A DNA stretch of 32,138 nt, from IMG/VR virus record IMGVR_UViG_3300028394_000215, positions 1-32,138 of that record. The stretch is one strand, 5' to 3'. Below, piece after piece: positions 341-31,546 of the stretch. Made by a program: the position numbers and the translations under genes. Position 1 is the stretch's first letter, and each line of letters opens with the position of its first letter. The notes below the pieces were generated by a model. It made no database searches. It was given only the letters and a program-made list of their open reading frames with translations, and had not been told where the DNA came from. The DNA is from a virus.

Positions 341-1004
341 AACAATCAAATACAGCCAGAGGCTTGGGGATGTGCTTAGATGCCTTCCAGCTTGTAAGTA
401 TTTAGCAGACCAAGGGCATGAGGTGTTCTTTGATTGCTTTGCCCAATATCATGGTGTCTTTGAAATGGTTTCCTATGTAAAAGCTGGCCATAGGCAGGGA
501 GTCACTATTGACCTGGAGATTTGGCCAGCCAGGTATGAAGAGTTTATAAACAGCAAAAAGACCTGGCACGACTTTGTTTATTCCCACAACTCAATCAAGG
601 ATGCAGACAGAACTAACATTATCCTGGACAGACTAGAGAAAACACCAGCAGAAGGGCTACCCTCAAATTATGTCTTGGTTGCACCATTTGGCATAAGCCA
701 ATCATACAAAAGAGACCCAACCCTAATTATACAGGATGCAGTTAGAGAGTTTGGCATGGATAAGGTTATTGTTTTATGCCCATCAGAGGTAACTATCCAG
801 GGGCTTAGAACTTACACTGCTCCAACAATTCAAGATATGGCAAAGGCAATTAGGGATGCAGAAGAGTTCCTGGCTGTTAATTCAAGCCCAATTATCCTGG
901 CATCTGCTGTAAGAGATGGGAAAACAAGCAGACTCTATGGAGAGAAATTTGAGCATAAAGTTCAGAATGTCTTTGATTTTGAGGGGCTTGTAATAATAGA
1001 TTGA
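327..1004 (+). CDS. GT9-like (heptosyltransferase-type) glycosyltransferase
   Basis: This 225-residue protein has a GT-B look. An N-terminal beta-strand and glycine turn, YSQRLGDVLRCLPACKYL, resembles the GDxL...P motif of GT9/heptosyltransferases. A C-terminal segment, DMAKAIRDAEEFLAVNSSPIILASA, resembles the GT9 donor site, where a Ser/Asn stretch precedes a small-residue helix. It is shorter than bacterial heptosyltransferases (about 320-350 residues), so it may be a minimal form. ATG 327 is preferred over the two TTG codons at 321 and 324. It overlaps the preceding gene. Acceptor and donor are unknown. Modification of a virion glycan, of host surface sugar or of DNA is possible. Confidence 0.6.
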   Translation: MTQPRTIKYSQRLGDVLRCLPACKYLADQGHEVFFDCFAQYHGVFEMVSYVKAGHRQGVTIDLEIWPARYEEFINSKKTWHDFVYSHNSIKDADRTNIILDRLEKTPAEGLPSNYVLVAPFGISQSYKRDPTLIIQDAVREFGMDKVIVLCPSEVTIQGLRTYTAPTIQDMAKAIRDAEEFLAVNSSPIILASAVRDGKTSRLYGEKFEHKVQNVFDFEGLVIID

Positions 1005-1006
1005 CA
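1001..1006 (+). promoter_or_regulatory. TTGACA element before the neck gene
   Basis: TTGACA includes the stop codon of the upstream gene and ends 13 bases before the GTG at 1020. It is one of eight copies with this tight spacing. It is too close to the start codon to be the -35 box of that gene. Confidence 0.5.
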
Positions 1007-1019
1007 GGGGTGGTGGGGT

Positions 1020-1337
1020 GTGGGTGGCTTAATCCAAACTTCCTATTTCAGTTCAGACTTGAACTACATGATAATAGACCTGTGGCAATCTGTCACTGGT
1101 CTTGGTTCAAATGCTGTTTCTGCCAGTGTAACAGACTTGGCAGTTTCATCTGAACTGGATGTGGGTGGAGATGTTTTTAGAATTACACAGAGTGCAGTTG
1201 TCTGTGCATCCATGATTTCTGCCCCTGTAATTGGAAATCTTTGCACGGTATCTGGTATTGAAAGGATGATTGCTGGATTCTCACAATCCACAGACGGCCT
1301 TTCTTATACAATAGACTTGGCAGAGATTACAACCTAA
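1020..1337 (+). CDS. Head-tail joining (neck) protein
   Basis: This 105-residue protein ends in a small beta-barrel-like pattern: PVIGNLCTVSGIERMIAGFS, then STDGLSYTIDLAEI. The pattern Gly-x-hydrophobic-Gly...DG-x-x-Tyr recalls lambda gpFII-like and other neck proteins. The position just before the tail terminator and tail tube genes supports this. The start is a GTG in a G-rich leader; the first in-frame ATG (1068) would drop 16 residues. There is no clear AGGAGG, but a TTGACA lies 13 bases upstream. The role is inferred mainly from gene order. Confidence 0.5.
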   Translation: MGGLIQTSYFSSDLNYMIIDLWQSVTGLGSNAVSASVTDLAVSSELDVGGDVFRITQSAVVCASMISAPVIGNLCTVSGIERMIAGFSQSTDGLSYTIDLAEITT

Positions 1338-1341
1338 CACC

Positions 1342-1758
1342 ATGGCTTCTATTGAAAGAGAGGTTGAGAATGGGCTTCTCAACGCTGTCTCTGCTGTAAC
1401 TGGTCTGAATGCCTACACAAGTGAAAGAGGAGATGCAAGACTACTCCCCAACATGGTGGCACAAGCCCAGATTGGTTCTGAAGTTCTCGGCCCCTTTACA
1501 GGTGTTTTTAGCATCCCAGCAACCATTACCTATACAGCCAGGGCTGATTCAACAACCAGGGTGGCATTCGATGCTAAGTTCCAGGACATCATGAACGAGC
1601 TTTATAGGGCTCCAGACCTGCCAACCTACATGACAAATGTTTCAAGCATCTCTGTCTATGTTGCTAAAGTAACAAGTGAAAGCCCACAGATCATTGCCCA
1701 GAATAGAACCTGGTCAAAAACAATCACCCTAGACATCAGTGCAACAGCTAAAAAATGA
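1342..1758 (+). CDS. Tail terminator / tail completion protein, copy 1
   Basis: This 138-residue protein is a clear paralogue of the next gene. Both start with an EN-(G/A)-hydrophobic helix and share NAYTSERGDARLLPN versus NVYTANRVGGRLFPY, GPFTGVFSI versus GNYTGVYDL, and a C-terminal W-x-(K/R)-(T/G)-(I/L)-TL strand. The size and the location between neck and tail tube fit the gpU / HK97 gp10-type tail terminator that caps the tail and joins it to the head. Function is inferred from position; the paralogy is seen directly. Confidence 0.5.
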   Translation: MASIEREVENGLLNAVSAVTGLNAYTSERGDARLLPNMVAQAQIGSEVLGPFTGVFSIPATITYTARADSTTRVAFDAKFQDIMNELYRAPDLPTYMTNVSSISVYVAKVTSESPQIIAQNRTWSKTITLDISATAKK

Positions 1759-2687: not shown

Positions 2688-2688
2688 C

Positions 2689-2694
2689 TTGACA
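2689..2694 (+). promoter_or_regulatory. TTGACA element before the tail tube gene
   Basis: TTGACA ends 16 bases before ATG 2711. Between them sits a strong AAGGAG ribosome binding site, so here the element and a Shine-Dalgarno site coexist. Confidence 0.5.
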
Positions 2695-2710
2695 TAAAGG
2701 AGACATTACT

Positions 2711-3064: not shown

Positions 3065-3072
3065 TAAAAATA

Positions 3073-3089: not shown

Positions 3090-3105
3090 ATCATGAAATC
3101 CTAAA

Positions 3106-4063: not shown

Positions 4064-4779
4064 GCTTCAAACTAGATACCAGGCAATTTGAAAGAAGGCT
4101 GGAGCAGTATGTTCCCCTGGCCAGAAAAGATATAACCAATGAGCTTAATAGACGCTCAGCCAACATCCTCATGAAGGCAATTGCAAATACAGAAAAAGCC
4201 AGCCTGGGGGCTCTAAGATCGTTATTCTCTAGGAGTGCAACGGTAATGAGGGCAACAACAAACAAGAAAACAGGCATAACCAGGATTTCAAGGCCAAGGC
4301 AGAAAGTTGTCCATGGAACCATGGATGGCTACAGAATAGCCAATTATAGAAGGAACATAAGGATGGGCAGAAGGCCAACAGGGAACCCTCCTGGTGGTGG
4401 ATTAGGTGGGGCATCAATGAAGGCATACATAAGGAAAACATTCAAAGCCTTGGGCAGTGCAGTTGGTTATTTGAAATCTGGATGGTTGCCAGCATTGAGA
4501 GTTTTCAAGCAAGCAGGTGGAGCCAAAGACTCTGCAAAATTAAAGGGCAAAAAGGGAACAGCCAGCTTTGGTGGCGGGGTAAGGGCAACTCCTGGTGAAA
4601 CTATGAGAGCCTACTTTTACTCCACAGCCAACCCCAGGACATTTGCAAAGGGGCCGGTGTCTATTGAATCCAGGCTAAATACAGCACTGCAAAAGGCAGT
4701 GGATGAAGAGACACAGGATATGATGGTCTATATATTCAGAAAAATACAGGAGAGGGCTGACAAAAGCCTAATGTCATGA
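4060..4779 (+). CDS. Minor tail protein, basic
   Basis: This 239-residue, strongly basic protein sits between the chaperone fusion and the tape measure, overlapping both by ATGA. It starts MSFKLDTRQFERRLEQYV, an HK97-gp10-like opening helix seen in small phage neck/tail proteins. It then has an Arg/Lys/Gly-rich middle (NIRMGRRPTGNPPGGGLGG) and a helical C-terminus. The function is not known. A tail completion or tape-measure-associated role is inferred from position. Confidence 0.5.
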   Translation: MSFKLDTRQFERRLEQYVPLARKDITNELNRRSANILMKAIANTEKASLGALRSLFSRSATVMRATTNKKTGITRISRPRQKVVHGTMDGYRIANYRRNIRMGRRPTGNPPGGGLGGASMKAYIRKTFKALGSAVGYLKSGWLPALRVFKQAGGAKDSAKLKGKKGTASFGGGVRATPGETMRAYFYSTANPRTFAKGPVSIESRLNTALQKAVDEETQDMMVYIFRKIQERADKSLMS

Positions 4780-7163: not shown

Positions 7164-7169
7164 TTGACA
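7164..7169 (+). promoter_or_regulatory. TTGACA element before the tail fibre gene
   Basis: TTGACA ends 15 bases before ATG 7185. The spacer carries a short AGGA that could serve as ribosome binding site. Confidence 0.5.
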
Positions 7170-8909: not shown

Positions 8910-8920
8910 ACGAAATCCTT

Positions 8921-9492: not shown

Positions 9493-9498
9493 TTGACA
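9493..9498 (+). promoter_or_regulatory. TTGACA element before the holin-like gene
   Basis: TTGACA ends 13 bases before ATG 9512. The spacer is pyrimidine-rich and contains CCTCCT, the reverse of a Shine-Dalgarno site, so initiation here is not SD-driven. Confidence 0.5.
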
Positions 9499-10566: not shown

Positions 10567-10923
10567 ATGACAAAGAGCATTGCTATTGTGGCTGATAATC
10601 AATTCACAGCTAGTCACCTACAGCACCTTCAGCAAATAAAGGCAGTGGCGGCTGATATGATTGATGATAAATATCGTCGTGGCCAGGCACAGCATGGTGG
10701 CAATTTATGGGGAATGTCCACAGCAAGGATTGTTGAAGCTTCTCTCGAGGAGGCAACGGACCAAATGACATATCTTCTCACGCTTCGTCAGCAGACGAGA
10801 ATCATCATGGAACTTGCACATGAGGGCATGAAAGATGATTCAGTCTGTGCCACAACTGCCAGAGAGAATTGTAGGACAATCTGGTATGTTCTAACAGGTA
10901 GTGATGATGGCGCAAAAATTTAA
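10567..10923 (+). CDS. MazG-like all-alpha protein
   Basis: This 118-residue helical protein has DKYRRGQAQHGGNLW, a pattern found in phage MazG-like/NTP-pyrophosphohydrolase relatives. It is followed by EASLEEATDQMTYLLTL, where E-x-x-x-D could bind Mg. If active it would hydrolyse (d)NTPs or alarmone-type nucleotides. The family link is by pattern only. ATG 10567 is the first ATG; a TTG at 10561 overlapping the previous stop is possible. It overlaps the phosphoesterase gene. Confidence 0.5.
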   Translation: MTKSIAIVADNQFTASHLQHLQQIKAVAADMIDDKYRRGQAQHGGNLWGMSTARIVEASLEEATDQMTYLLTLRQQTRIIMELAHEGMKDDSVCATTARENCRTIWYVLTGSDDGAKI

Positions 10924-11641
10924 GAAGTTCCTTGCTGTAACCTGTTCTCACGGCCACCTGGCTGATGCCAAGGCCACCAGGGCTGTGCTTGAGTTTAAGA
11001 AGAGATGGAAGCCAGACACCACCCTGCACCTGGGGGATGCCATCGACTTGGCCGCTTTTAGGGCAGGGGCAATGAGGTCTCCTGACTCAGCAGATAGAGC
11101 CGCCAGCATTGCAGAAGATTTCAATGCGGGGATAAACTTTTTAAGGTTATTAGAGCCCAATGTGTTTTTTGTAGGCAACCATGAGAATCGTGTTTATGAA
11201 CACCAGTATTCTCCCAATGCAATCCTGGCTCATTGTGCCACCAGTTGCTTGGCTGACCTTCACCAGGTCTGTAAAGATTTGAGGGCAGAGATTGTCCAAT
11301 ACGACATCATGAAAGGCTGGAGGGAATATGGTGGCACATTGTTTGGGCATGGCTGGATGTTCAATGAGCACGCCGTCCGTGACCATGTGGAGATGATGAA
11401 AAAGCCCATTGTCATTGGGCATCTGCACAGGGTGGACAGGGCGGCTGGAAGAAGTGTGGGGGCTCCAGTGGGCTGGACAATTGGATGCCTGGCCAATGTT
11501 GATTCAATGACCTATGCCAGGAGAAACAGAAGCATCACCAGGTGGCAACATGGAATAGCCTGGGGAGAATACAATGATCACGATTGCATTGTGAATGTTC
11601 TTTCACCAACCAGCAGTGGAGAGTGGAGGTTCCCAGTATGA
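10904..11641 (+). CDS. Calcineurin-like metallophosphoesterase with altered first motif
   Basis: This 245-residue protein has most of the dinuclear metallophosphatase motifs in order: GDAID (D45, D48), GNHE (N92, H93), FGHGW (H149) and GHLH (H173, H175). The first motif, normally D-x-H, reads TCSHGH (residues 13-18), so the Asp is replaced by Cys while the His stays. Relatives act on nucleotides, nucleic acids or phosphoproteins. Triple start codons GTG/ATG/ATG lie at 10901/10904/10907. It sits between a MazG-like and a winged-helix-like gene. Confidence 0.75.
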   Translation: MMAQKFKKFLAVTCSHGHLADAKATRAVLEFKKRWKPDTTLHLGDAIDLAAFRAGAMRSPDSADRAASIAEDFNAGINFLRLLEPNVFFVGNHENRVYEHQYSPNAILAHCATSCLADLHQVCKDLRAEIVQYDIMKGWREYGGTLFGHGWMFNEHAVRDHVEMMKKPIVIGHLHRVDRAAGRSVGAPVGWTIGCLANVDSMTYARRNRSITRWQHGIAWGEYNDHDCIVNVLSPTSSGEWRFPV

Positions 11642-11967: not shown

Positions 11968-11995
11968 TTGACAAACCCTCAACATATGTTAAGTT
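11968..11995 (+). promoter_or_regulatory. Putative promoter, TTGACA-N16-TAAGTT
   Basis: The perfect -35 hexamer is followed after 16 bases by TAAGTT, a poor -10 (3 of 6). It lies in one of the few real gaps of the early region, 28 bases before ATG 12002. The TTGACA could instead be the same element seen in the late genes. Confidence 0.35.
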
Positions 11996-12538: not shown

Positions 12539-12566
12539 TTGACACATTAACCACAAACCTTAAAAG
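12539..12566 (+). promoter_or_regulatory. Putative promoter, TTGACA-N16-TAAAAG
   Basis: A perfect -35 hexamer is followed after 16 bases by TAAAAG (4 of 6 to TATAAT). A transcript starting about seven bases later would have a short leader with GAGGAA and then ATG 12582. This is the most promoter-like of the TTGACA copies. Confidence 0.45.
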
Positions 12567-13265: not shown

Positions 13266-13477
13266 GTGAAGAACTGCCAACATTCTGGTATGAGGAGCCA
13301 GCCAATAAAAAGTTACCAGGTGAAACCACAGATGAATGGGTAGTAAGAGTGTTTGGAGCTTTCCCAGATACCGAGTTCGACCAGCGTAATGACTTTAGGT
13401 GTTTGAACTTACCCACAACCGCAAAAGAAAATGCCGAAGGTTTTGGCATCTTCGATTACGGACAAGACAAACAATAA
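13262..13477 (+). CDS. Small acidic protein of unknown function
   Basis: This 71-residue protein (start MSEELPTFWYEEPANKKLPG) is acidic and aromatic-rich. It lies between the nuclease and the annealing-type gene and overlaps the nuclease by ATGA. It could be a partner of either. No motif is recognised. Confidence 0.5.
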   Translation: MSEELPTFWYEEPANKKLPGETTDEWVVRVFGAFPDTEFDQRNDFRCLNLPTTAKENAEGFGIFDYGQDKQ

Positions 13478-13496
13478 ACAAAAAGGAGAACAACCA

Positions 13497-17863: not shown

Positions 17864-18725
17864 TTTTGCCATCTTCATCCTAACTCATGGTAGGCCAACC
17901 AATATAAAGACCATGGCCACGCTAAAAGATTGTGGCTACACTGGAAAGCTTTACTTGGTGGTTGATGATGAGGACAAGACCCTGGACAAATACATTGCCA
18001 ACTTTGGCAAGGATAGAGTGGTTGTTTTTAATAAGAAAGAGATGGCAGACCAGGTTGATGAGGGAAACAACTTCGATGAAAGAAGGACAATCACTCATGC
18101 CAGGAATGCCTGTTTCAAAATAGCCAAAGACCTTGGCATAAAATACTTCATGGAACTGGACGATGATTATATATCATTTGAATACAGGTATGTGAGCAGG
18201 TGTGGGGAGAAGCTGAAGGTTCACTATGTATCCAACTTGGATGCTGTGCTTGGTCTTTACCTTGAGTTTTATAAGGCAACAGGCTTTTCAAGCATGGCAT
18301 TTGCCCAGGGTGGCGACTTCATTGGTGGTGTTGAAAACAAATATGCAACCAAGAAGCCCCTTATCAGAAAATGCATGAACTCATTTATATGCTCAACAGA
18401 AAGGCCATTCCAATTCATTGGTGCAATGAATGAGGATGTGAATACCTATGTTACCTTGGGCTCGAGGGGAGTGCTATTTGGCACTATTCCCATGATCAGC
18501 CTGGTTCAAACAGCCACTCAGAGTCAGAAGCATGGAATCACTGATATGTATTTGAGGTTTGGAACATACTGCAAGGCTTTCACCACGGTGATGATGCACC
18601 CATCCAGTGTTAGGATTTCCATGATGAATACCAGCAACCCCAGGATTCATCATTTGATTAAGTGGCAGAACACAACCCCAATGATTGTATCAGAGCAATA
18701 TAGGAAGCCTGTGGGTAACTTGTGA
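17847..18725 (+). CDS. TET-associated glycosyltransferase (TAGT)
   Basis: This 292-residue GT-A type enzyme shows the TAGT landmarks in order: ILTHGRP (11-17), VVDDEDK (38-44), ARNACF (85-90), ELDDDY (103-108, a D-x-D type metal/nucleotide-sugar site), MNEDVNTY (194-201), TQSQKHGITDMY (about 224-235) and RIHH (266-269). In phages this family glycosylates hydroxymethylated cytosine in DNA made by a TET/JBP dioxygenase. No dioxygenase is visible here. It starts with TTG, with AAGGAA eight bases upstream; the next in-frame Met codon is 65 bases later. Confidence 0.8.
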   Translation: MSTQSDFAIFILTHGRPTNIKTMATLKDCGYTGKLYLVVDDEDKTLDKYIANFGKDRVVVFNKKEMADQVDEGNNFDERRTITHARNACFKIAKDLGIKYFMELDDDYISFEYRYVSRCGEKLKVHYVSNLDAVLGLYLEFYKATGFSSMAFAQGGDFIGGVENKYATKKPLIRKCMNSFICSTERPFQFIGAMNEDVNTYVTLGSRGVLFGTIPMISLVQTATQSQKHGITDMYLRFGTYCKAFTTVMMHPSSVRISMMNTSNPRIHHLIKWQNTTPMIVSEQYRKPVGNL

Positions 18726-18742: not shown

Positions 18743-18770
18743 TTGACACCATAAACTCCAAAGCTAGGAC
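18743..18770 (+). promoter_or_regulatory. Putative promoter, TTGACA-N16-TAGGAC
   Basis: A perfect -35 hexamer lies in the 51-base gap after the TAGT gene. A weak -10 (TAGGAC, 3 of 6) follows at 16 bases, and ATG 18777 is 28 bases after the hexamer. The AGGA may rather be the ribosome binding site. Confidence 0.35.
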
Positions 18771-18776: not shown

Positions 18777-19073
18777 ATGCCCATTGAGTCAGCACAACTT
18801 AGGGCTGAAAGACTTTTAATTGAACTTTGCCCAGATAATGCAGAGTTTAAGAAGCTTACAGCCAAGAATAGAACTGAGGAACGCATAGATTTGCTCAGAC
18901 AGGCAGTCGCAGTGCTGTTAATCAATGGTATTCCAACGGCAGTCATTGCTAAAATACTTAAAATTGGCCAAGGAGCAGTCCAATACCACGCCAGGTGGCT
19001 AGAAAAAAACGGTAAGATTGTTAAGCCAAAGAGATTTGCACACTGGATTGATGCAGAACAGGTGGCTATATGA
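18777..19073 (+). CDS. Helix-turn-helix DNA-binding protein
   Basis: This 98-residue protein has a charged helical N-terminus, then GIPTAVIAKILKIGQGAVQYHARWLEKNG, a clear helix-turn-helix. A basic tail ends the protein. It is the first gene after a promoter-like sequence and overlaps the 3D-domain gene. It is a candidate regulator of the 19-21 kb region, which carries the AAACGGTA repeats, one of them inside this gene. Confidence 0.55.
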   Translation: MPIESAQLRAERLLIELCPDNAEFKKLTAKNRTEERIDLLRQAVAVLLINGIPTAVIAKILKIGQGAVQYHARWLEKNGKIVKPKRFAHWIDAEQVAI

Positions 19074-21069: not shown

Positions 21070-21357
21070 ATGAAACCACTCCATTTGATGTGCTTTGGCA
21101 TGACCTGGGGGGTTGCCTTGTTGCTAGGGGCTCTATATCAAGGCTTTATAAAATGCCAGAAAAGGCAAAACCGACCCCTTGATTTTAAGGCACTTACACA
21201 AGGAAGTGGCACTTACAGAAGCGTGGTTGTTGATAATACCCATACTTATGACTTAAAAAGTAATAGGTTCTGTAAGTTGTTGTCAATAAAAAACATAGAT
21301 AACTTTTTACAGGTCATTTTTTCAGGTGGCAGGTTCCGAGCCACGATCATTTTGTGA
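21070..21357 (+). CDS. Doubtful membrane-anchored ORF
   Basis: This is a 95-residue ORF. The first 35 residues look like a real protein with one membrane helix (LMCFGMTWGVALLLGALY) and a basic stretch (KCQKRQNRP). From about residue 50 the sequence loses protein-like character and covers the ACTTACA repeats and A/T-rich DNA. A short real gene with a decayed end, or no gene, is equally possible. Confidence 0.3.
   Translation: MKPLHLMCFGMTWGVALLLGALYQGFIKCQKRQNRPLDFKALTQGSGTYRSVVVDNTHTYDLKSNRFCKLLSIKNIDNFLQVIFSGGRFRATIIL
21189..21277 (+). repeat. ACTTACA direct and inverted repeats
   Basis: GGCACTTACA occurs twice in direct orientation (21189-21198 and 21208-21217, 19 bases apart). The second copy, ACTTACAG (21211-21218), has a perfect 8-base inverted partner CTGTAAGT at 21270-21277. 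A weaker TTTACAGG follows near 21306. This looks like an operator or protein-binding array. Confidence 0.5.
21326..21344 (+). other. GTGGC/GCCAC hairpin
   Basis: A 5-bp stem surrounds a 9-base loop (AGGTTCCGA). There is no terminator T-run. The loop recalls a tRNA T-loop, but the stem and flanks do not form a tRNA. Confidence 0.3.
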
Positions 21358-22902: not shown

Positions 22903-24681
22903 ATGAAGCTTGTACCCTTCATGAAAAGCTTCTTGATTCCCAAGAAGCAATTATCAATTTCAGAATGGTGTGAGCAGAGCTTGGTTCTTTCACCAAGAAT
23001 CACAAACATTCCAGGCCCGTATAGCACAAATCTTACTCCCTATGTGAGGGAGCCCCTGGAGGCTTTTGGGAATGATTCTGTTAGGAGAATTACTCTGGTG
23101 TGGGGAGCCCAGACATCCAAGACAACCACAATTCTTGCAGGGCTTTCCTACAGGCTGGCAGTTGAACCATGCCCAGCACTTTGGGTAATGCCATCTGAAG
23201 CACTGGCAAGATCATTCTCAGAAACCAGGTGGTTGCCAATGGTGGACGATTGCCCAATTCTGGCAAAGGAAAAGCCAGAGAATACAGATAAAATAAAGAT
23301 ACTCGAACAGCACTTTAGAAAAATGAGCCTTTGGTTTGTGGGCTCAAACAGCCCAGCCAATCTTTCCTCCAGATCAGTTTCACTTTTGATGCTCGATGAG
23401 GTTGATAAATTTTCTGATGGCACAAATTCAAAAGAGGCTGGAGCATTGCAGTTGGCAGAAGCCAGAGTTGCAACATATCCAAACCATTTTGTTGTTTCCA
23501 CCAGCACACCAACCACAGCAGATTCAATCATCTGGGCAGAGTGGCAGAAGGGAGACATGAGATTCTTCTTTGTTCCATGCCCCCATTGTGGACACAAACA
23601 AAAGCTTATTTGGGAGAGGGTGAAGTGGGATGAAAAGGCAAAGCTTGAAGATGGAGTGTATGACTTTGGGATTGTGAAAAATTCAGCCTACTATGAATGT
23701 GAAAACTGCCAGAAGCCAATTAGGGATGGACACAAAACAATGATGTTGAGGCAGGGTGAGTGGAGACCAACCAACCCCAAGGGTGAGCCAGGCAGAAGGT
23801 CATATCATTTGAATGGCCTATACCCACCGTGGGTAACCTTTGGAAGCCTGGCAGTTAAATTCCTACAGGACAAGCACAGCGGAATCATAGGGCTACAGGA
23901 CTTTGTGAACAGGGTTCTTGCAGAACCATGGATGGAGCATGACCAGGAGAGGATAGAGATTATACCAGGCAAATATAAACTTGGTGAAGTGAACATGGGT
24001 GAGAAGCTTGTCATGGCCTGTGACATTCAAGAGGCCGGCGGCTTCCATGCCTGGTGTGTTGTGAGGGCTTGGGACATGGACGGGAAAAGCAGATTGGTGT
24101 GGGCTGGGAGGCTTGAAACCTGGGGAGACATCAAGGCCAAGGCAGATGAGTTTAATGTTGAGCCTAAAGCAACCTTTATTGATTCTGGTGACCAAACCCG
24201 TGATGTTTATTTGCATTGTTGCCAATGGGGTTTTATTGCCCTGGTTGGTTCAGACAAATCAAGCTTCTCAGAGATTGTTGGGGAGCAGAGAGTTCAAAGA
24301 CCATTTGCCAGGATTGCAAATGGAGACCCATTCAGTGGAAAGAATGTTGGCTCCAGGGAGGGCTGGAAATGGAAGCTTTGCCCAGTTTGGAGATGGTCAA
24401 ACCCAGCCATTAAAGACATCCTCTCCAACCTTTTGAAAACTGATGGATTTATTGCAGAAGATACACCAGAGGTTTGGAAGGTTCACATTTCATCTGAAAC
24501 AAAGGTGGAGGTTAGGAATCCCATGACGGGCAGAACCAGGAGGGTGTGGAAGCAGATAGGCAAGCACAACCACTTACTTGATTGTGAGTGCATGGCCATT
24601 GTGGGTGCGGCTTTGCATAAGAGGCTGAAGATCATGCCCGCAGGCTTGACAGAGGAGATTGAGAATAATGGCGAAGGGTGA
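22903..24681 (+). CDS. Terminase large subunit (GpA type)
   Basis: This 592-residue ATPase-nuclease has IPGPYSTNLTPYVREPLEAF early (typical of lambda gpA-like terminases), Walker A-like GAQTSKTT (68-75) and Walker B LLMLDEVDKF (161-170). STSTPT near 210 is the coupling motif. A zinc finger at about 225-275 (CPHCG...CENC) matches the GpA family. The C-terminal nuclease region has MACDIQEAGGFH and FIDSGDQT. It moves DNA into the capsid with ATP and cuts it. The 3' end carries the TTGACA for the next gene. Confidence 0.9.
   Translation: MKLVPFMKSFLIPKKQLSISEWCEQSLVLSPRITNIPGPYSTNLTPYVREPLEAFGNDSVRRITLVWGAQTSKTTTILAGLSYRLAVEPCPALWVMPSEALARSFSETRWLPMVDDCPILAKEKPENTDKIKILEQHFRKMSLWFVGSNSPANLSSRSVSLLMLDEVDKFSDGTNSKEAGALQLAEARVATYPNHFVVSTSTPTTADSIIWAEWQKGDMRFFFVPCPHCGHKQKLIWERVKWDEKAKLEDGVYDFGIVKNSAYYECENCQKPIRDGHKTMMLRQGEWRPTNPKGEPGRRSYHLNGLYPPWVTFGSLAVKFLQDKHSGIIGLQDFVNRVLAEPWMEHDQERIEIIPGKYKLGEVNMGEKLVMACDIQEAGGFHAWCVVRAWDMDGKSRLVWAGRLETWGDIKAKADEFNVEPKATFIDSGDQTRDVYLHCCQWGFIALVGSDKSSFSEIVGEQRVQRPFARIANGDPFSGKNVGSREGWKWKLCPVWRWSNPAIKDILSNLLKTDGFIAEDTPEVWKVHISSETKVEVRNPMTGRTRRVWKQIGKHNHLLDCECMAIVGAALHKRLKIMPAGLTEEIENNGEG
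24646..24651 (+). promoter_or_regulatory. TTGACA element before the gpW-like gene
   Basis: TTGACA lies inside the end of the large terminase gene and ends 16 bases before ATG 24668. GAGGAG is in the spacer. A copy inside coding sequence at the right spacing argues for function. Confidence 0.5.
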
Positions 24682-24904
24682 TTTCATTGGCTTACCCATC
24701 GCCACCTTAAATTCCCTGCGTGACAAGTATGTTTCATGTCTAGAGGCAATTGCGGTGGCTGGTGCAAGTTATTCAATTGCTGGAAGATCATTCAGCAGGG
24801 CAAACCTGTCTGAGGTTAGAGAAATTATTGCTGAATTGACTCTTGCCATTCAGTCTGCATCTGGCACAAGAATTAGAACCACCTATGCAAAATTCGGCCC
24901 ATGA
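24668..24904 (+). CDS. gpW-like head-tail joining protein
   Basis: This 78-residue protein has SLRDKYVSCLEAIAVAGASYSIAGRSFSRANLSEVREIIAELTLAIQSAS, like lambda gpW: helix, beta turn with G-R-x-x-(S/T), helix. gpW plugs the capsid portal and joins the tail. In the GpA-type phages it lies between terminase and portal, as here. It overlaps both neighbours, and the start is supported by TTGACA at the usual spacing. Confidence 0.7.
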   Translation: MAKGDFIGLPIATLNSLRDKYVSCLEAIAVAGASYSIAGRSFSRANLSEVREIIAELTLAIQSASGTRIRTTYAKFGP

Positions 24905-27900
24905 AGCTTAAACAAACATTCCTGGATAAGCTTGTTTCATTTGTAAATCCCCAGGCTGGGGTTCAAAGGCTGATGGCAAAAAAAGCCCTTACCAAGTTTG
25001 AATATGATGCAGTAAAATACACTAGGGAAAGACGCGGTCCGAGCAATCTATCTGGTGCAGAGGACTTTAGATCAAATTATGATCGTGTAGAGTTGATGAA
25101 GAGGGCAAGAGACCTGGCAGAAAACAATGGTCTGGTTCGCTCCATATTGATGAAGTTTGCAAGCCATGTTGCATCAAACATTACATACCAATCCAGGACA
25201 GATAACCCCAAGGCCAACACAGAGATTGAGGCATACTGGAATGAATGGTTTGATAATTGTGACCTATCAACCAGGCACACAGGCTCAACCCTTATGCAAG
25301 TTGCAACCATGTCCATGCTCCGTGATGGCGATTTTCTTTTTGTATTGGTCAGAGATAAGAATGGAGACTTAAAACTCCAGGGTATTGAATCTGATAGACT
25401 CGGTGACCCATACAAAACTTATACAAGCCTAGAGCTTATTGGTGGCATTCATATTGATAGGGACACTGGCGCCCCCACTGCTTATGATATTTACAATCGT
25501 AGCATTGGGGATTTCTATTCCTACCAAGTAACCATTTCAGCCAGCCAGGCATTCCACTATTTTGACCCACTCAGAATTGACCAATACAGGGGCGTGTCTG
25601 CTTTCCACACTGCCATCAATGATGCCACTGATATTTATGACATTGTGAATTTTGAGAAGCTGGCCGCCAAGGTTGCCAGTTCCCAGAGTGCAGTTGTGAA
25701 GAGGTCAAACAACAACGCCTCCGACCTTAGTGCCTTAACCACAGAGGAAAACTTTGATAACCAACAAATCAAGCTAGAATCAATGGAATCTGGCAAGGTT
25801 AGCTATTTGGAGCCAGGAGAGGACATCATTTTCCCAGACGGCCCCAGCAGACCCAGTGGAGCCTTTGCAGAGTTTCATAAAATCTTATTGAGAAATATCT
25901 GCATGGGACTTGGAATCCCCTACTCCTTTGCTGTCGACCCATCTGCCATGTCCGGCCCCACAGCCAGGCTTGAAATGCAACAGGCTGGAAGAACTTTTAA
26001 CAGATACCAGAAGCTACTTAATGATAAGGTTCTGAATCCAATCAAGAACATTGTTATTGCTGATGGTGTAGCCAGGGGAATGATCAGTGGCAATGGAGCC
26101 AAAACAACCAAGGGCATTTTCAATTTTGGAGCCAATGTTTCTATCGACCTCGGACGGGAATCTATGGCAAACATTGCAGAGTTTAAGGCTGGACTGACCA
26201 CAGCAAGCTCAATCTATGCAGAGAAGGGGCTGGATGTTGAAGCGGCCTTTAGGGCAAGAGCCATTGAGACCAAGATGATTCAAGACCTGGCAAAGGAATA
26301 TGGAGTTCCAGCCCAAGCGGTTTCTGAAATTCTTTTGCCCACAGGCCAGCCAGCACAGGCAGGGCAACCAGGACAAACAACCCAAGACGGCCAGCAGGTG
26401 GAAGGCCAAGAGGATGTTATTGGGCAAAGCCTCAATGGAGCCCAGGTTGCTTCCCTCATCAATGTCATCAATGCAGTGGCGGCTGGTGCATTGTCCAAGG
26501 AGGGTGCAGTTTCAGTTATCACGGCCGCCTTCCCAACCATTTCAAGGGAACAGGCCATTGGCATTGTTGCTGGTGTGCAGTCTGGAAAAATCATTCCAAC
26601 CACAGAAAAAGAAAAGCAAGCCGCCCAAGATGGACAACAGGATGAAGGCCGGGGTGGGGCTCCAGTTCCAGCAACACCTAAAGCCCCAGTTGCACCTACA
26701 GGCTTAGAGGAGTTGAAGTGCCCACTACCAACTCAAGATGTAAAACTCAATCTTGAGAATAGACAGACAGCAGTTGATAAGGCCAATTACGGCCCAGCAA
26801 ATCCTAACGAACCCAATGAGAGCTACTGGAAAGCCAAGGCCAATGAGTTCCAGGGTGATGTTGCAACTGCAAAGAAAATGCTCTGTGGCAATTGCGCCGC
26901 ATTCAACCAAACCAGCAAACTACTGGGTTGCATCAAAAATGGAATTGGTGAAGATGCCAATGAAGTAGCACTGGGTGGGAACCTTGGATATTGTGAAATT
27001 TTTGATTTTAAATGTGCGGCCAAAAGAACCTGCGATGCCTGGATTGTTGGCGGCCCGATGACAGATAAAAAAAAACAAGCTGAACAAGCCCTATCAAGCC
27101 TAAGCCAACAAGAGCTTAAAATGCTCATTGCTGGAATGATGGGTGGCATTGAGTTGGGCAAGTATGATGGGATTGATTTTACACCACCAGAAGGAGCCAG
27201 GGAGTCGGCCAAGAGGGCTTTGGATGTAAGGGAAGAGAAACCAGCCAGCCAAAAGGGAATGACGCCTGTGGGCATTGCCAGGGCTAGGGATTTGATCAAT
27301 GGGGTTAAGTTCTCTCCAGACACCGTCCGCAGAATGAAGGCATTCTTTGATCGCCATGAAGTCGATAAGAAGGGTGAAACTTGGGATGAGCAGGGTAAGG
27401 GCTGGCAAGCCTGGAATGGGTGGGGTGGTGATGCTGGCTATTCCTGGGCAAAGAAAGTTGTTGGCCAGATGGAGTCAAGAGACAAGAACCTTTCAGAACC
27501 AAAAGATGAAACTGAATTTGCTGACGACAAAGAGATTCTAAACCCATGCGGGATGAAGGACGATGGAACTTTTGATGATAAGAATACCTGTTCTTCTGGC
27601 TATGGAAGGCCAAAGCTTGTTGGTGGATATAGCCCCAAGAGACCAGGGGGCAAAATCATTGCAAAGCCAGCCCCTCCAGCACCCAAGCCACCCGCTCCTC
27701 CTCCGCCTCCTCCTCCTTCTGCACCCACAGGCAAAACCCCTCCACCCCCATCTAAAACTCCTTCACAAGAAAAAGAAGGAAGAAATACATCTGTTAAGAA
27801 AAAGAAGGCTGTTGAAAAGGTTGAGAATGAACTTCTAAAAATGGGCATTAAATATGTTGATTTGCCAGATCATATTGACGCCGCAAAACTTATACAAAAA

Positions 27901-28377
27901 GAAGTGGCCGACCTTCAGAAGGCTGGATATGGAACACCTAAAAGCCTTGGCAGAGGAATGCTTATGGGCAGTTCGGTTGCCTGGGCAACAGGCAGAAGCA
28001 ATTATCAAGAGGTTGAATTTAATCATGCTAAAGGTGCAAGATATAGACAGATTACAGAGTTTTCTGATTCCATCGAGCTTTCAGTTAAATCTGGCCATTG
28101 GGCTTCTCCAAGCGTTGTTGCACATGAGCACGGGCATTCACTCCATGGACAAATAATTGGCAGAGATGGGTTTCAAAACATTTGGACATGGAGCAAGTTA
28201 CCCAAAGAGCAACGAGCCAGGATTAGGCCATTGGCGGCCAAGGTAAGCAGATATGCCACCACAGACCCACTGGAATTTGTGGCTGAAACTTTTGCTGGAC
28301 ACACGGCTGGGAAAAGATATTCTAAGGATATATATGACGCCTACAACGAGCTCCGAGGGCCGAAGCTGAAATTCTAG
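24901..28377 (+). CDS. Portal protein fused to a metallopeptidase domain
   Basis: Residues 1-470 of this 1158-residue protein are a lambda-type portal (NGLVRSILMKFASHV; PYSFAVDPSAMSGPTARLEM). A Gln-rich hinge follows. Residues about 605-715 hold a Cys-rich region (C607, C662, C665, C677, C698, C705, C711). Residues 785-855 carry a small domain (GIARARDLINGVKFSPDTVR...WGGDAGYSWA). Residues 922-955 are a Pro-rich linker. Residues 960-1158 hold HEHGH (1075-1079), a HExxH zinc site, and E1125/E1129 as likely third ligand. The portal forms the DNA channel; the peptidase tail may act in head maturation or as a toxin. Ordinary portals are 500-600 residues. Confidence 0.8.
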   Translation: MKLKQTFLDKLVSFVNPQAGVQRLMAKKALTKFEYDAVKYTRERRGPSNLSGAEDFRSNYDRVELMKRARDLAENNGLVRSILMKFASHVASNITYQSRTDNPKANTEIEAYWNEWFDNCDLSTRHTGSTLMQVATMSMLRDGDFLFVLVRDKNGDLKLQGIESDRLGDPYKTYTSLELIGGIHIDRDTGAPTAYDIYNRSIGDFYSYQVTISASQAFHYFDPLRIDQYRGVSAFHTAINDATDIYDIVNFEKLAAKVASSQSAVVKRSNNNASDLSALTTEENFDNQQIKLESMESGKVSYLEPGEDIIFPDGPSRPSGAFAEFHKILLRNICMGLGIPYSFAVDPSAMSGPTARLEMQQAGRTFNRYQKLLNDKVLNPIKNIVIADGVARGMISGNGAKTTKGIFNFGANVSIDLGRESMANIAEFKAGLTTASSIYAEKGLDVEAAFRARAIETKMIQDLAKEYGVPAQAVSEILLPTGQPAQAGQPGQTTQDGQQVEGQEDVIGQSLNGAQVASLINVINAVAAGALSKEGAVSVITAAFPTISREQAIGIVAGVQSGKIIPTTEKEKQAAQDGQQDEGRGGAPVPATPKAPVAPTGLEELKCPLPTQDVKLNLENRQTAVDKANYGPANPNEPNESYWKAKANEFQGDVATAKKMLCGNCAAFNQTSKLLGCIKNGIGEDANEVALGGNLGYCEIFDFKCAAKRTCDAWIVGGPMTDKKKQAEQALSSLSQQELKMLIAGMMGGIELGKYDGIDFTPPEGARESAKRALDVREEKPASQKGMTPVGIARARDLINGVKFSPDTVRRMKAFFDRHEVDKKGETWDEQGKGWQAWNGWGGDAGYSWAKKVVGQMESRDKNLSEPKDETEFADDKEILNPCGMKDDGTFDDKNTCSSGYGRPKLVGGYSPKRPGGKIIAKPAPPAPKPPAPPPPPPPSAPTGKTPPPPSKTPSQEKEGRNTSVKKKKAVEKVENELLKMGIKYVDLPDHIDAAKLIQKEVADLQKAGYGTPKSLGRGMLMGSSVAWATGRSNYQEVEFNHAKGARYRQITEFSDSIELSVKSGHWASPSVVAHEHGHSLHGQIIGRDGFQNIWTWSKLPKEQRARIRPLAAKVSRYATTDPLEFVAETFAGHTAGKRYSKDIYDAYNELRGPKLKF

Positions 28378-28379
28378 TT

Positions 28380-28877
28380 ATGCTAATAACTGAACAAGAT
28401 TTTACTCCAGAATCCTACCAGGAGACTAAGGACTTATGGTGGAGAAGGCTCTTTGGTAGTGAGCCACCCAAAGAAAAGGAACTAGCCAGACCAGGTGCAA
28501 AGTCTGCCTCCCAGACTCCAGCCCCACCAAAGGAAAGAATCAAGGGTTCTGAACAGAACAAGCCTGGTTCAGCGGCTACAAAAAGCACTGGTGGCAAGAT
28601 TGAGATTGGAGAGGGTGCAGAGGAATCAATCAAGAACAAGCTGAAGGAATGGAAAGACAAGAACCCTGGCAAGAAAGCCCCATCCCTGGGAGCTCTAAAG
28701 AAGGTGTTCAGAAGGGGTGCTGGAGCCTACTCAACAAGCTTCAGACCAACCATTGGTGGTGGTAAGCCTAACTCCAGGAATGCCTGGGCATTGGCTAGGG
28801 TGAACAAGTTTCTGCTCATGGCAGGTGGTGGCAAGGTGAAAGCATCCTACCGCCAGGCTGACGGCGACCTGCTTTGA
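28380..28877 (+). CDS. Head-associated protein of unknown function
   Basis: This 165-residue basic protein follows the portal after two bases. The C-terminal 65 residues show a conserved phage pattern: GAYSTSFRPTIGGG, NAWALARVNKFL, KVKASYRQADGDLL. Such domains occur in portal or head operons and sometimes at portal C-termini. The N-terminal half is a disordered Pro/Lys/Glu linker. Its stop TGA is part of the TTGACA before the protease. Confidence 0.5.
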   Translation: MLITEQDFTPESYQETKDLWWRRLFGSEPPKEKELARPGAKSASQTPAPPKERIKGSEQNKPGSAATKSTGGKIEIGEGAEESIKNKLKEWKDKNPGKKAPSLGALKKVFRRGAGAYSTSFRPTIGGGKPNSRNAWALARVNKFLLMAGGGKVKASYRQADGDLL

Positions 28878-28879
28878 CA
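28874..28879 (+). promoter_or_regulatory. TTGACA element before the protease gene
   Basis: TTGACA overlaps the stop of the upstream gene and ends 14 bases before ATG 28894. The spacer has no Shine-Dalgarno site, and a short GGGC/GCCC hairpin spans the ATG. Confidence 0.5.
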
Positions 28880-28893: not shown

Positions 28894-30102
28894 ATGCCCC
28901 TGCCCTTACCTAGTGGTGATGAGTCCGAACAGGACTTTGTTTCTCGATTCATGGGAGATGAAGAAGCTGTAGCAAAATTCCCAGATGAAACCCAGAGGGC
29001 GGCTGTGGCCTATAGCACCTATAAGGATGAGGAAGAAATGGAATGCGGGGACGAGGAAATGGAAGCAAATGATTTTGGCGGGGTAAGCATTCTTGAGATT
29101 GGTGAGGCCAAGGGGCATGACTTGTTTGTGGACAAATTAAGCCTGGAGAAGGCAATGGACATCATGAAACAGGCTCCCAATGGAGTTAAGGTCAAGATGA
29201 ACCACGGCTCTGGATTGGATGCGGTCGTCGGCTTTGCAAGGAATGCCAGGATTGAGGGTAATAAGCTGGTTGCAGACCTAAGACTTTTGAAGAGTAGCCA
29301 GCATTATGGATTGATTAAAGAGATGGCAGATGAGGCTCCAGATCAGTTTGGAATCTCCCTGGCATTTGTGAATGAGAGTGAGTCAATCAATGGCAAGGAC
29401 TACATCAGACCCCAAAGCATTGCCTCTGCTGACTTGGTTTCTAGCCCAGCGGCAACCAATGGATTGTTTGAAGAAATGATTAAGTTCATGGAGAAGGTAA
29501 AAGAATTAAGGTGTTGGGATGGTTACAAGCCAGCAAAAGGTTCCAAGCCCTATGAAACAGGTTCTTGCGTAAAAGCAGAAAAGAAACTCGGCTATATGGC
29601 CGGAGGTAAGCCAATCCCCATTGACCTGCCCAATGCAGTTGTTGAGGGTGATGGTTTGACAAAACAAGGAGAAACAATGGAAAACAATTATTCTAAAGAT
29701 ATCGAGGACATCAAGGTTCGCCTAGCGGCCATTGAAGATTCGATGAAACCCAAAAATGAAAAGATGGCTGAAGCGCCTGTGGATGAGCAAGCTGTTGTCG
29801 AAGACAAAGCGGTTGCAGAGGGTGCAAAAGCTGAAGGAGAATCTGTTGAAGAGGAAAAGCAAGAGGAGTCAATGAGTGAAGTGGTTAAGAAGGTTCTTAC
29901 CCAGTTCGGCATTAAGCCCATCCCTGCATCCCCTGCTGTTGAGGTTGCTCTTGAAAAGAAAGAGGAACCAAAGAACTTTGAAGGTCTTGTTTCTGCTCAT
30001 GCAGAATATAAGACTTCGAAGCTGAAGGCTATGAAGGCCGTCATGCTTTCCAACCCCAAAGAATATGCTGAGGCTCTTAGCCGTGGCATTAAGAACATCT
30101 AA
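28894..30102 (+). CDS. Prohead protease with C-terminal scaffold domain
   Basis: In this 402-residue protein, residues 10-45 (ESEQDFVSRFMGDEE...FPDETQRAAVAY) are a small helical domain common in phage head proteins. Residues 95-200 form the protease: VKVKMNHGSGLDAVVG (H104) and DQFGISLAFVNES (S155), a His-Ser pair like HK97-type proteases. From about 262 on it is acidic, coiled-coil and Ala/Glu-rich, like a scaffold. Lambda uses the same design (C and Nu3). An internal start for the scaffold lies at residue 262. Confidence 0.75.
   Translation: MPLPLPSGDESEQDFVSRFMGDEEAVAKFPDETQRAAVAYSTYKDEEEMECGDEEMEANDFGGVSILEIGEAKGHDLFVDKLSLEKAMDIMKQAPNGVKVKMNHGSGLDAVVGFARNARIEGNKLVADLRLLKSSQHYGLIKEMADEAPDQFGISLAFVNESESINGKDYIRPQSIASADLVSSPAATNGLFEEMIKFMEKVKELRCWDGYKPAKGSKPYETGSCVKAEKKLGYMAGGKPIPIDLPNAVVEGDGLTKQGETMENNYSKDIEDIKVRLAAIEDSMKPKNEKMAEAPVDEQAVVEDKAVAEGAKAEGESVEEEKQEESMSEVVKKVLTQFGIKPIPASPAVEVALEKKEEPKNFEGLVSAHAEYKTSKLKAMKAVMLSNPKEYAEALSRGIKNI
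29656..29661 (+). promoter_or_regulatory. TTGACA element before the nested scaffold start
   Basis: TTGACA lies inside the protease gene and ends 15 bases before the in-frame ATG 29677, with AAGGAG at 29666-29671 between. The spacing is that of the late-gene copies. Confidence 0.55.
29677..30102 (+). CDS. Nested in-frame scaffold protein
   Basis: This 141-residue product uses the same stop as the protease. ATG 29677 has AAGGAG five bases upstream and a TTGACA element at the usual distance. The product begins MENNYSKDIEDIKVRLAAIE (a coiled coil), then a disordered Glu/Ala/Lys stretch and a helical C-terminus (ALSRGIKNI). This matches the internal scaffold of lambda-like phages, which is needed in excess over the protease. 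Supported by signals, not by experiment. Confidence 0.65.
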   Translation: MENNYSKDIEDIKVRLAAIEDSMKPKNEKMAEAPVDEQAVVEDKAVAEGAKAEGESVEEEKQEESMSEVVKKVLTQFGIKPIPASPAVEVALEKKEEPKNFEGLVSAHAEYKTSKLKAMKAVMLSNPKEYAEALSRGIKNI

Positions 30103-30120
30103 CAAAAGGATAAATAAAAA

Positions 30121-30483
30121 ATGAGCACGCAAATTGATAATGGGTATCGGACTTTCTCAACATCGTCCGCTATCTCCGCTTATCGCATGGTTCAGCCTTC
30201 TACCGTCACTGCTGGTGGCGTTGATGTGGCTGTAACTGGTGCGACCAAAGCTATTGGTTCAACCCTTGAGGATGTAGCGGCTGGCGGTTATGTAACCGTC
30301 AAGCTCTTTCATCCTACGTACTTCGCAACCGTCAGTGGCGTGGCCGCTGTGGGTGATGTTGTGAAATTCGATGCCCTTGGTCAAGTTACGACCCTTGCGG
30401 CAAACCTTGTTACTGCTGGAATTGCATTGGAAGCCGCTACTGCGACTTCTGCTGTGATTGAAATTGCAGTGCCAATGTTCTAA
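30121..30483 (+). CDS. Head decoration protein (DUF2190-like)
   Basis: This 120-residue beta-rich, Ala/Val/Gly-rich protein lies between the scaffold and the major capsid gene, the usual position for decoration or cement proteins (lambda gpD place). The sequence LEDVAAGGYVTVKLFHPTYFATVSG and DVVKFDALGQVTTLA fits the DUF2190 type. Codon use is biased towards CGT/CGC, GCT and ACC, as expected for high expression. Confidence 0.6.
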   Translation: MSTQIDNGYRTFSTSSAISAYRMVQPSTVTAGGVDVAVTGATKAIGSTLEDVAAGGYVTVKLFHPTYFATVSGVAAVGDVVKFDALGQVTTLAANLVTAGIALEAATATSAVIEIAVPMF

Positions 30484-30511
30484 CCCATAACCAAGAAAGA
30501 ATAATAATACA

Positions 30512-31477
30512 ATGAGTTTTATTTCTGGTGGCACAACCATTCGGGCCGATATCAACCAGGCGTTGATCGAGGCTCCTAACACCGAGACTGGCTTGATTGG
30601 AGCAGAGGTTCTGCCTTTGCTTCCTGTCCCTGCCAAGAGCGGCCAATATCTTAAAGTTCAGCTTGCACAAGCTGACCTATTAAACAATGACTCTAAGCCT
30701 CGCGCGGCCGCTGGTGACTACGCCCGTGCTGTTCGTGCGTTTGGGACTGACACCTACGACACGATTGAGTATGGACTCGAAGAGCTAATTGATGATGGTT
30801 TTCGCGCAGATGCTGACAGGTTTTTTGATCTCGAAGCATCGTCTGCCCGCTTCCTCCTCCGCCAAATCAAGCTTGGCCATGAGAAGCGTGTAAGCGACCT
30901 ATTGTTTGCAAGCACAACCCCATTCACAACTGCTGACCAGAGCGCAATCTCTGCCTACACCAATGCGAATCTTTCCAACATTGATGTGGCTGGTGACATT
31001 GCTGGTGCTCGCACTGAGTTGAACAAACTTGGTTACGAAGCCAACACAATCATCATGTCTGCCCCTGTGTTTGAGCGTATCCGCCGCACAACCAAACTCC
31101 AGAACCAGTTCTTTGGTGTTGTTTCTGACACCAAGGGCCGTCTCCTGGCTGAAGCTGAAATCGCCGCCGCCCTTGGGGTTGAGCGGGTTTTGGTTGGTCG
31201 GGCCGCAATCAACTCTGCTAACAAGAACAAAACTTACTCTGGTGGGTTCATTGTTCCCAATACGCAGATCATTGTTGCCAATGTGCAGAGTGGTCAGTTC
31301 ACTGCTGGTGGAATTGGTCGTACCCTGGTGTGGTCGGCTGATGCCCCTGGTGGTTTTGTTTCTGAAAGCTATCGTGATGAAGCCCGTCGCTCCAACGTTC
31401 TCCGTGTTCGCATGAACACCAGTGAGAAACTGATTGATGCTAACGCGGCTGTTCGTATCACCACTAGCTTCGCCTAA
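30512..31477 (+). CDS. Major capsid protein (HK97 fold, gpE-like)
   Basis: In this 321-residue protein, N-terminal ADINQALIEAPNTETGLIG and the central YDTIEYGLEELIDDGFRAD...SARFLLRQIKLGHEKRV give the long spine helix region. The C-terminal part SADAPGGFVSESYRDEARRSNVLRVR is typical of phage capsid proteins of the gpE/P22-like group. Codons differ sharply from most genes (CGT/CGC for Arg). A strong terminator follows. Confidence 0.8.
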   Translation: MSFISGGTTIRADINQALIEAPNTETGLIGAEVLPLLPVPAKSGQYLKVQLAQADLLNNDSKPRAAAGDYARAVRAFGTDTYDTIEYGLEELIDDGFRADADRFFDLEASSARFLLRQIKLGHEKRVSDLLFASTTPFTTADQSAISAYTNANLSNIDVAGDIAGARTELNKLGYEANTIIMSAPVFERIRRTTKLQNQFFGVVSDTKGRLLAEAEIAAALGVERVLVGRAAINSANKNKTYSGGFIVPNTQIIVANVQSGQFTAGGIGRTLVWSADAPGGFVSESYRDEARRSNVLRVRMNTSEKLIDANAAVRITTSFA

Positions 31478-31500
31478 AGACTGCTGTTGGTGTGTTCCTT

Positions 31501-31542
31501 GTGGGGGCTGGAGGGCTAAAACCTTCCAGCCCCTACTTTTTT
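31501..31542 (+). terminator. Strong intrinsic terminator after the capsid gene
   Basis: A 12-bp stem (GGGGCTGGAGGG with CCTTCCAGCCCC, one wobble, extendable by three more pairs) has a CTAAAA loop and is followed by TAC then TTTTTT (31537-31542). It should end the capsid transcript. Confidence 0.85.
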
Positions 31543-31546
31543 GACA
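31541..31546 (+). promoter_or_regulatory. TTGACA element overlapping the capsid terminator
   Basis: TTGACA begins within the terminator T-run and ends 16 bases before ATG 31563. A TATAAT at 31551-31556 lies only 4 bases after it, too near for a normal -35/-10 pair. On its own it would start a transcript about at the ATG. Confidence 0.5.

Follow-up and report, generated by a model that had tools for sequence, protein, structure and literature searches.

The hexamer TTGACA stands at a short, gene-specific distance upstream of a set of start codons in an uncultivated phage, the 32138-base IMG/VR virus record IMGVR_UViG_3300028394_000215 (here the window, analysed at its full length), and in the relatives of this phage. 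The start-linked TTGACA is a real, lineage-wide signal of mainly structural and lysis-side genes. What was observed comprises its position, its spacing kept gene by gene, its conserved variants, its orientation, its avoidance on both strands, the lack of a -10 box and a hairpin that abuts one of the sites. The copies that lie closest to start codons may form the core of a phage late promoter consisting of the short, asymmetric word YTRACA; this account is favoured here as a tentative one, somewhat short of probable.

TTGACA copies in the window

The window carries 11 copies of TTGACA on the + strand and one on the - strand. The original prediction had given coordinates for the + strand copies, every one of which is exact, and had noted that eight of them end 13-16 nucleotides (nt) before a start codon (tight copies), that the three others, in the early region, end farther away (far or early copies), and that three of the tight copies have no Shine-Dalgarno site; all of these statements are confirmed. 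The individual sites, including one variant and the - strand copy, are as follows.

1001..1006, + strand: tight TTGACA, 13 nt before GTG 1020 of gene 1020-1337
2689..2694, + strand: tight TTGACA, 16 nt before ATG 2711
7164..7169, + strand: tight TTGACA, 15 nt before ATG 7185 of a 568-amino-acid gene, function unassigned
9493..9498, + strand: tight TTGACA, 13 nt before ATG 9512, without Shine-Dalgarno site
24646..24651, + strand: tight TTGACA within the terminase gene, 16 nt before ATG 24668 (head-tail adaptor)
28874..28879, + strand: tight TTGACA overlapping the stop of open reading frame (ORF) 28380-28877, 14 nt before ATG 28894, without Shine-Dalgarno site
29656..29661, + strand: tight TTGACA within ORF 28894-30102, 15 nt before the in-frame ATG 29677 (codon 262)
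31541..31546, + strand: tight TTGACA, 16 nt before ATG 31563, without Shine-Dalgarno site
11968..11973, + strand: far TTGACA, 28 nt before ATG 12002 and 22 nt before GTG 11996; TAAGTT at a spacer of 16
12539..12544, + strand: far TTGACA, 37 nt before an ATG; TAAAAG at a spacer of 16
18743..18748, + strand: far TTGACA, 28 nt before ATG 18777 (helix-turn-helix gene); TAGGAC at a spacer of 16
4757..4762, + strand: variant CTGACA, 13 nt before ATG 4776
21281..21286, - strand: the only - strand TTGACA, antisense to a small + strand ORF; no - strand gene assigned

TTGACA is rare overall in the window, with 12 copies present on both strands where a dinucleotide shuffle expects about 26, and its non-random features are position and strand. 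Among the 56 starts of a hand-made gene list, in which the internal start 29677 was included because of its site, eight have TTGACA at 13-16 nt when 0.10 would be expected from its density (Poisson P = 2e-13), which rules out chance as the origin of the tight copies. They are found at 8 of the 33 starts on the structural and lysis side of the window and at 0 of the 23 others (P = 0.016); the labels "late" and "early" for window genes are drawn from gene content. The 245 nt between 20825 and 21069, close to the sole - strand copy, form the longest intergenic gap in the gene list.

Conservation of the sites gene by gene

Relatives were collected through the terminase, which has 227 related stretches in IMG/VR; the best 80 of the 227, which are 76-100% identical, were retained for comparison, and a repeat scan gave as its best 80 76 loci of the first set and 4 new ones. 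Sixteen related contigs, chosen by the authors among the contigs of the 80 loci, made up the sample for pattern tests, and 10 genomes or long contigs were used for the detailed gene-by-gene comparison. Loss of the pattern in relatives had been set beforehand as its refuter, and the pattern is kept: TTGACA-N13-17-ATG has 85 matches and occurs in 16 of 16 related contigs, always on one strand per contig, and the reversed control pattern has 0 matches in the same contigs.

Spacing is conserved gene by gene across genomes, and the hexamer is kept despite changed spacer sequence and codon frame. The site of gene 1020 is orthologous in 10/10 genomes (13-15 nt), as are those of the head-tail adaptor gene (10/10, 13 or 16 nt) and of the internal start 29677 (10/10, 15 or 17 nt), where the hexamer thus lies in two codon frames. 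The site is also found before gene 28894, a putative protease gene, in 9/10 genomes (13-14 nt), and before gene 9512, which encodes 56 amino acids and lies 5' of the endolysin gene, in 8/10 genomes (13-14 nt) with differing spacer sequences. Gene 7185 has TTGACA at 14-16 nt in 8/10 genomes and TTAACA at 16 nt in G006, the site of gene 2711 has orthologues in 7/10 genomes (16-21 nt), and that of gene 31563 stands at exactly 16 nt in 6/10 genomes, those where the pair was found. Where a genome is counted as having no match at a site, this may reflect absence of the gene, a cut contig or absence of the site.

The internal start 29677 has its own Shine-Dalgarno site and is kept in frame in 7 of 7 genomes checked, and ORF 28894-30102 perhaps contains a scaffold protein nested in the protease gene and starting at 29677. 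Protein-level conservation was rejected as the cause of TTGACA at this start, as the codon frame differs between genomes. The original prediction had placed this copy inside a protease gene; the position within the ORF stands, and the protease label is without a family match here.

Two variants of the hexamer are also kept at gene starts. CTGACA precedes gene 4776 at 13-15 nt in 6/10 genomes, four of the six being close kin, and TTAACA lies at 14-15 nt in six genomes before a gene whose protein begins MAL. The motif therefore has the consensus YTRACA, with TTGACA as its commonest form; all conserved variants retain ACA, with variation at the third base.

Positional specificity and avoidance across six genomes

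Statistics were taken over six diverged genomes (G000, G003, G004, G005, G006, G008), with the copies of the window counted in; G001, G002 and G007, whose terminases are 98-100% identical to that of the window, were left out because they are close to it. The six genomes hold 61 + strand copies of TTGACA, 39 of which lie 13-17 nt before the ATG or GTG of an ORF of at least 40 codons, with 6 more at 18-23 nt and 6 at 24-40 nt. The start-linked fraction of 0.64 ranks 1 among the 3311 hexamers that occur 20 times or more (mean 0.06), and TTGACA also leads all hexamers in enrichment within the 32 nt that precede 310 called starts (z 24.8), with AAAGGA behind it. The earlier claim that the word is found only upstream of starts is accurate for 11 of 11 + strand copies in the window and fails for the copy at 21281, which has no gene. 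It is likewise too strict for the six genomes, as 10 of the 61 + strand copies have no such start within 40 nt, a number that takes in the window copy 12539, whose ATG opens an ORF of fewer than 40 codons.

Away from starts, the word is avoided. An order-2 Markov model expects 75.7 copies on the + strand of the six genomes, where 61 are observed, and 51.4 on the - strand, where 4 are observed, these being occurrences of the complement TGTCAA. Shuffling of synonymous codons gives 54.0±7.2 expected copies in the sense of coding sequence against 18 observed, and 43.1±6.4 in antisense against 2 observed; 13 of the 18 sense copies lie 13-17 nt before another start, which leaves 5. On the - strand, the one-base neighbours of TTGACA are all at 0.5 of expectation or above. 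As controls, TATAAT has observed/expected ratios of 1.17 on the + and 1.07 on the - strand, and the Shine-Dalgarno word AAGGAG, at 0.91 and 1.08, shows no avoidance. No avoidance is seen in 107 other viral loci either (560 copies against 572.6 expected, or 0.98), which were retrieved via one long TTGACA-containing pattern with that copy subtracted, their kinship not being checked singly. The matches listed by the viral pattern scan with TTGACATAAGGAG...ATG carry no information on frequency.

The two-strand avoidance points to TTGACA being read at the DNA level by a protein on double-stranded DNA, because an RNA signal would not be avoided as its complement and the Shine-Dalgarno word is unavoided. 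The original prediction had offered a translation-start signal, a binding site and part of a phage-specific promoter as options, and the avoidance favours the DNA-level ones, promoter element or binding site, over a pure RNA-level signal.

Relation to sigma-70 promoters

The tight copies match the sigma-70 -35 hexamer TTGACA, in which TTG is normally the firmer half, unlike the ACA-fixed motif of this phage. Of the 54 non-redundant tight sites, taken as those that have an ATG at 13-17 nt, none shows the -10 sequence TANNNT at spacers of 14-20, and lists of sigma-70-like promoters of the window include none of its 11 + strand copies. Both results agree with the earlier judgement that a tight copy stands too near its gene to be that gene's sigma-70 promoter. 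A sigma-70 promoter was accordingly rejected for the tight class, which has no -10 box and in which an ordinary transcript start would fall within the gene. In an alignment of 56 contexts, made up of the 54 tight sites and two more, every column 5' of position -1 stays within 0.2 bits, and the base 5' of the hexamer is never G (0/56), perhaps because GTTGAC belongs to an avoided palindrome-type site.

The three early copies have CA directly 5' of each, and among nine non-redundant early loci and orthologues TA[A/G] is found at the 16-nt spacer in 8/9 and the full TANNNT in 2/9. The earlier suggestion that these copies are true promoters is thus plausible but weak, and they may be ordinary host-type promoters with weak -10 boxes and TTGACA as the -35 box.

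A possible minimal late promoter

In the favoured account, RNA polymerase, altered by or joined with a phage factor, would read YTRACA on double-stranded DNA, and late transcription would begin a few bases 3' of the word, giving very short leaders; it would be these short leaders that require the word to sit directly before the start codon. Each tight gene would gain its own late start within an otherwise co-directional block. The genes served would be those of the head-tail adaptor and the putative protease, the in-frame inner start, tail and lysis-side genes and, likewise by its own tight site, the gene after the capsid-gene terminator; the three early copies would possibly be host-type promoters that share the hexamer as their -35 box. 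Initiation of transcription at the tight sites, the position of the start, late expression and the involvement of a phage factor are what we infer from the features described above. In its strictest form, with the -35 hexamer alone and no -10 box making up a complete late promoter 13-17 bp before starts and being purged from both strands over most of the remaining genome, the proposal is doubtful, though possible.

One site is placed directly behind a terminator-like structure:

31501..31536, + strand: terminator-like hairpin of 15 pairs, 3' of the major head protein gene, its T tract running into TTGACA 31541

This is the longest + strand terminator-like hairpin found in the window, where the number of such hairpins is in no excess over shuffled sequence. 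If the terminator works, the transcript of the next gene must begin no more than about 22 nt from its ATG. By a loose test, hairpins are found upstream in 16 of 90 non-redundant TTGACA contexts and in 16 of 272 other starts, and in 10 of those 16 contexts (six tight, four not) they have energies of -24 to -32 kcal/mol. A known Rfam family was rejected for these sites, with 0 matches at gathering score.

As to the factor involved, several phage proteins match helix-turn-helix models, including the products of 15799-16260 and 16257-16532 and that of 18777-19073, which has profile likeness to NarL-type helix-turn-helix domains (E 8e-4); the structure model for 15799-16260 is of low confidence. 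These helix-turn-helix proteins are candidate factors, with putative binding to TTGACA. No phage RNA polymerase was seen among the selected large ORFs scanned.

A number of observations weigh against the late promoter. T4 late promoters carry a TATAAATA element, act with gp55, gp33 and gp45, and start transcription 6-7 nt downstream of the element. Between TTGACA and the start codon, 28 of the 54 tight sites contain a Shine-Dalgarno 4-mer (among other starts the number is 104 of 282), so that a T4-like start 6-7 nt downstream would cut the Shine-Dalgarno sequence in these 28; transcripts would have to begin within about 3 nt, an unusual geometry, or the Shine-Dalgarno sequence would have to serve read-through mRNA. 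A gp55-like or sigma-like factor is absent from the Pfam and PHROG batches and three PDB profile searches, which covered the ORFs in part, and the model of 18777-19073 (pLDDT 80, moderate confidence) has no fold match below E 0.001. A T4 control of 49 kilobases (kb) speaks for the account in part: 12 of the 18 TATAAATA copies there have a start 14-28 nt downstream, and antisense copies in coding sequence are few for ATAAATA (1 against 15.5±3.3) and TATAAATA (0 against 2.8). Against it, antisense TATAAAT (12 against 12.2) and TATAAA (33 against 30.6) are unavoided in T4, as are sense copies of ATAAATA (11 against 10.8) and TATAAATA (5 against 2.6). On the + strand of the six genomes, some one-base neighbours of TTGACA are low as well (GTGACA 0.39, TTGTCA 0.42, CTGACA 0.49). 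Restriction pressure, which looks strong in the window and five relatives, where 47 of the 64 six-base palindromes fall short of half their expected number, is a possible confounder of the two-strand avoidance.

Alternative explanations

An RNA-level alternative holds that the ribosome, or a factor that binds RNA, is brought to the mRNA by UUGACA, which lies 5' of the Shine-Dalgarno slot. With its minimum distance of about 13 nt, the word does fall just outside that slot, ACA is invariant in the conserved variants, the in-frame internal start has the motif, and 26 of 54 tight sites are without a Shine-Dalgarno 4-mer; moreover, ACA motifs 5' of the Shine-Dalgarno site enhance translation in Salmonella, as passages of PMC3879156 describe. 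The avoidance of TGTCAA on the transcribed strand is nevertheless not expected of an RNA signal, the Shine-Dalgarno word itself is unavoided, and the effect in those passages has no strict position. One-base neighbours that keep ACA are also not clearly linked to starts at 13-17 nt: ATGACA (0.05), GTGACA (0.07), TAGACA (0.09), TCGACA (0), TGGACA (0.09), TTCACA (0.11) and TTTACA (0.03) span 0-0.11 around a mean of 0.06 for hexamers, TTAACA and CTGACA being set apart as conserved variants. A translation signal is on balance unlikely, though it merits attention. Less likely again is a binding site for a phage regulator of transcription initiation or elongation, similar to the operators and stoperators of cluster A mycobacteriophages or to the start-associated sequences (SAS) of cluster K. 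Such a site would fit an asymmetric word in a single orientation relative to transcription (which stoperators also follow in the passages of PMC9283540), placed at gene borders and avoided elsewhere; the early copies could be operators, and there are the several helix-turn-helix matches. A roadblock, however, needs no spacing of 13-17 nt, and yet the copies in the terminase and protease genes keep it, and six base pairs are little for a repressor. The stoperator 13-mer consensus, which is absent from the passages of PMC9283540, is at chance in the window (17 matches against 18.7 at up to 3 mismatches).

A host defence of the restriction kind directed at TTGACA, with surviving copies needed for an unrelated purpose, would agree with the depletion of palindromes, to which GGWCC (0.05 of expectation), GCWGC (0.04) and the non-palindromic GAAGAC (0.22) can be added and which suggests a host rich in restriction systems. 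It leaves the start-linked position unexplained, no defence with a TTGACA site was identified, and type III restriction enzymes, which need opposed sites, would not select against sense copies; this explanation is very improbable. Barely credible is that TTGACA reflects ordinary sigma-70 promoters or chance. The identity with the -35 box and the TA[A/G] at 16 nt of the three early copies speak for it, and it is opposed by the absence of TANNNT from the tight class, by transcript starts that would lie inside the gene and by the Poisson P value given above.

Gene content, relatives and other sequence words

The window encodes a GpA-type terminase, a lambda-family portal, a major head protein, an endolysin and a head-tail adaptor (Pfam/PHROG), and a simple gene caller places 46 genes on the + and 4 on the - strand. 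Bases 1-25,000 have no near match in a phage collection, the nearest phage terminase found has 31% identity, and a capsid search gave a single weak match, to an Arthrobacter phage. Scans of genome contigs for a host matched 100 stretches with a terminase pattern and 74 with a capsid pattern, 0 of either encoding a relative, and searches for relatives of ORFs 13431-14315 and 10901-11641 gave no match. In the first 50 kb of Microcystis phage LMM01 the palindrome profile differs and TTGACA is not avoided. At 24901-28877, a single ORF of G003, G005, G006 and G009 corresponds to both the 1158-amino-acid portal ORF and ORF 28380-28877 that follows it, so that the window and G004 seem to have a split portal. 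A ParB-like protein adjoins a TET-associated glycosyltransferase at 17459-18725; phages of E. coli and Lactobacillus have relatives of the latter that overlap ParB-like genes or lie next to them, and the pair may point to modified DNA.

A further word, GAAATCCT, is over-represented in the six genomes, with 33 copies against 3.9 expected on the + strand and 8 against 5.4 on the - strand, and 16 of the 33 + strand copies lie 0-7 nt before a start. It stands at 3095-3102 and 8912-8919 in the window, is also present in relatives and, unlike TTGACA, is unavoided in antisense. Its copies at gene 3106 and the orthologues of this gene come after a small hairpin whose loop is GGTTC. In IMGVR_UViG_3300022707_000766 (loci L144, L162, L231 and L232), TTGACA has 31 copies against 15.6 expected on one strand and 6 against 10.9 on the other; 16 of the 31 overlap the TGA stop codon of a called ORF, most of them within a series of small genes, and TAAGGAG follows several of them.

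If TTGACA is a promoter, its code would be minimal, a six-base word and its distance to the start codon marking late genes, and in uncultivated phages this code could be read with nothing but the sequence at hand. How a polymerase manages with a -35 word when no -10 box is present would then be a further question. Checking whether a word is avoided on two strands, with the Shine-Dalgarno word as control, may serve as a general test for DNA-level signals in metagenomic viruses.

Comparison with known systems

Among the papers listed by a search of the literature, mostly outside subscription papers, none describes a start-linked TTGACA pattern, and passages of a paper on nick sites (PMC3517423) hold no match to the motif. 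Several known systems share some of its properties. The ACA translation enhancers of Salmonella yifK and dppA lie upstream of the Shine-Dalgarno site in the passages of PMC3879156, and the phage word likewise has ACA just 5' of that site; the enhancers act in mRNA without strict position, whereas the phage signal needs the whole YTRACA. According to passages of PMC9283540, the stoperators of cluster A phages are asymmetric 13-mers oriented with transcription in short intergenic spaces and bound by a two-domain repressor. TTGACA is also asymmetric and oriented with transcription, but it is found within genes as well and keeps a set distance to starts. The -10-motif promoters of Deinococcus-Thermus, as described in part of PMC12340547, have TANNNT a few bp before the ORF and a short or no leader; they resemble the phage signal in consisting of one promoter element at a set spacing to the ORF and differ in word and distance, as TTGACA stands at 13-17 nt.

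The SAS of cluster K mycobacteriophages are short asymmetric repeats directly 5' of gene starts, mostly in one orientation and conserved by gene family, to which no function is assigned in the passages of Pope 2011 (PMC3203893). TTGACA is similarly oriented, directly upstream of starts and kept by gene family, but the SAS is a 13-mer, GGGATAGGAGCCC, and the phage word is a 6-mer that lies 5' of the Shine-Dalgarno slot and is avoided elsewhere. T4 late promoters provide a single short element close before late-gene starts, with a different word and longer distances, and sense copies are avoided in the TTGACA phage and not in T4; the parallel is partial, matching well in layout and only in part in avoidance. 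The window has 0 matches to the SAS consensus at up to 2 mismatches and 0 copies of the T4 element. With these consensus words absent from it, the phage signal belongs to neither class, although its behaviour resembles that of both.

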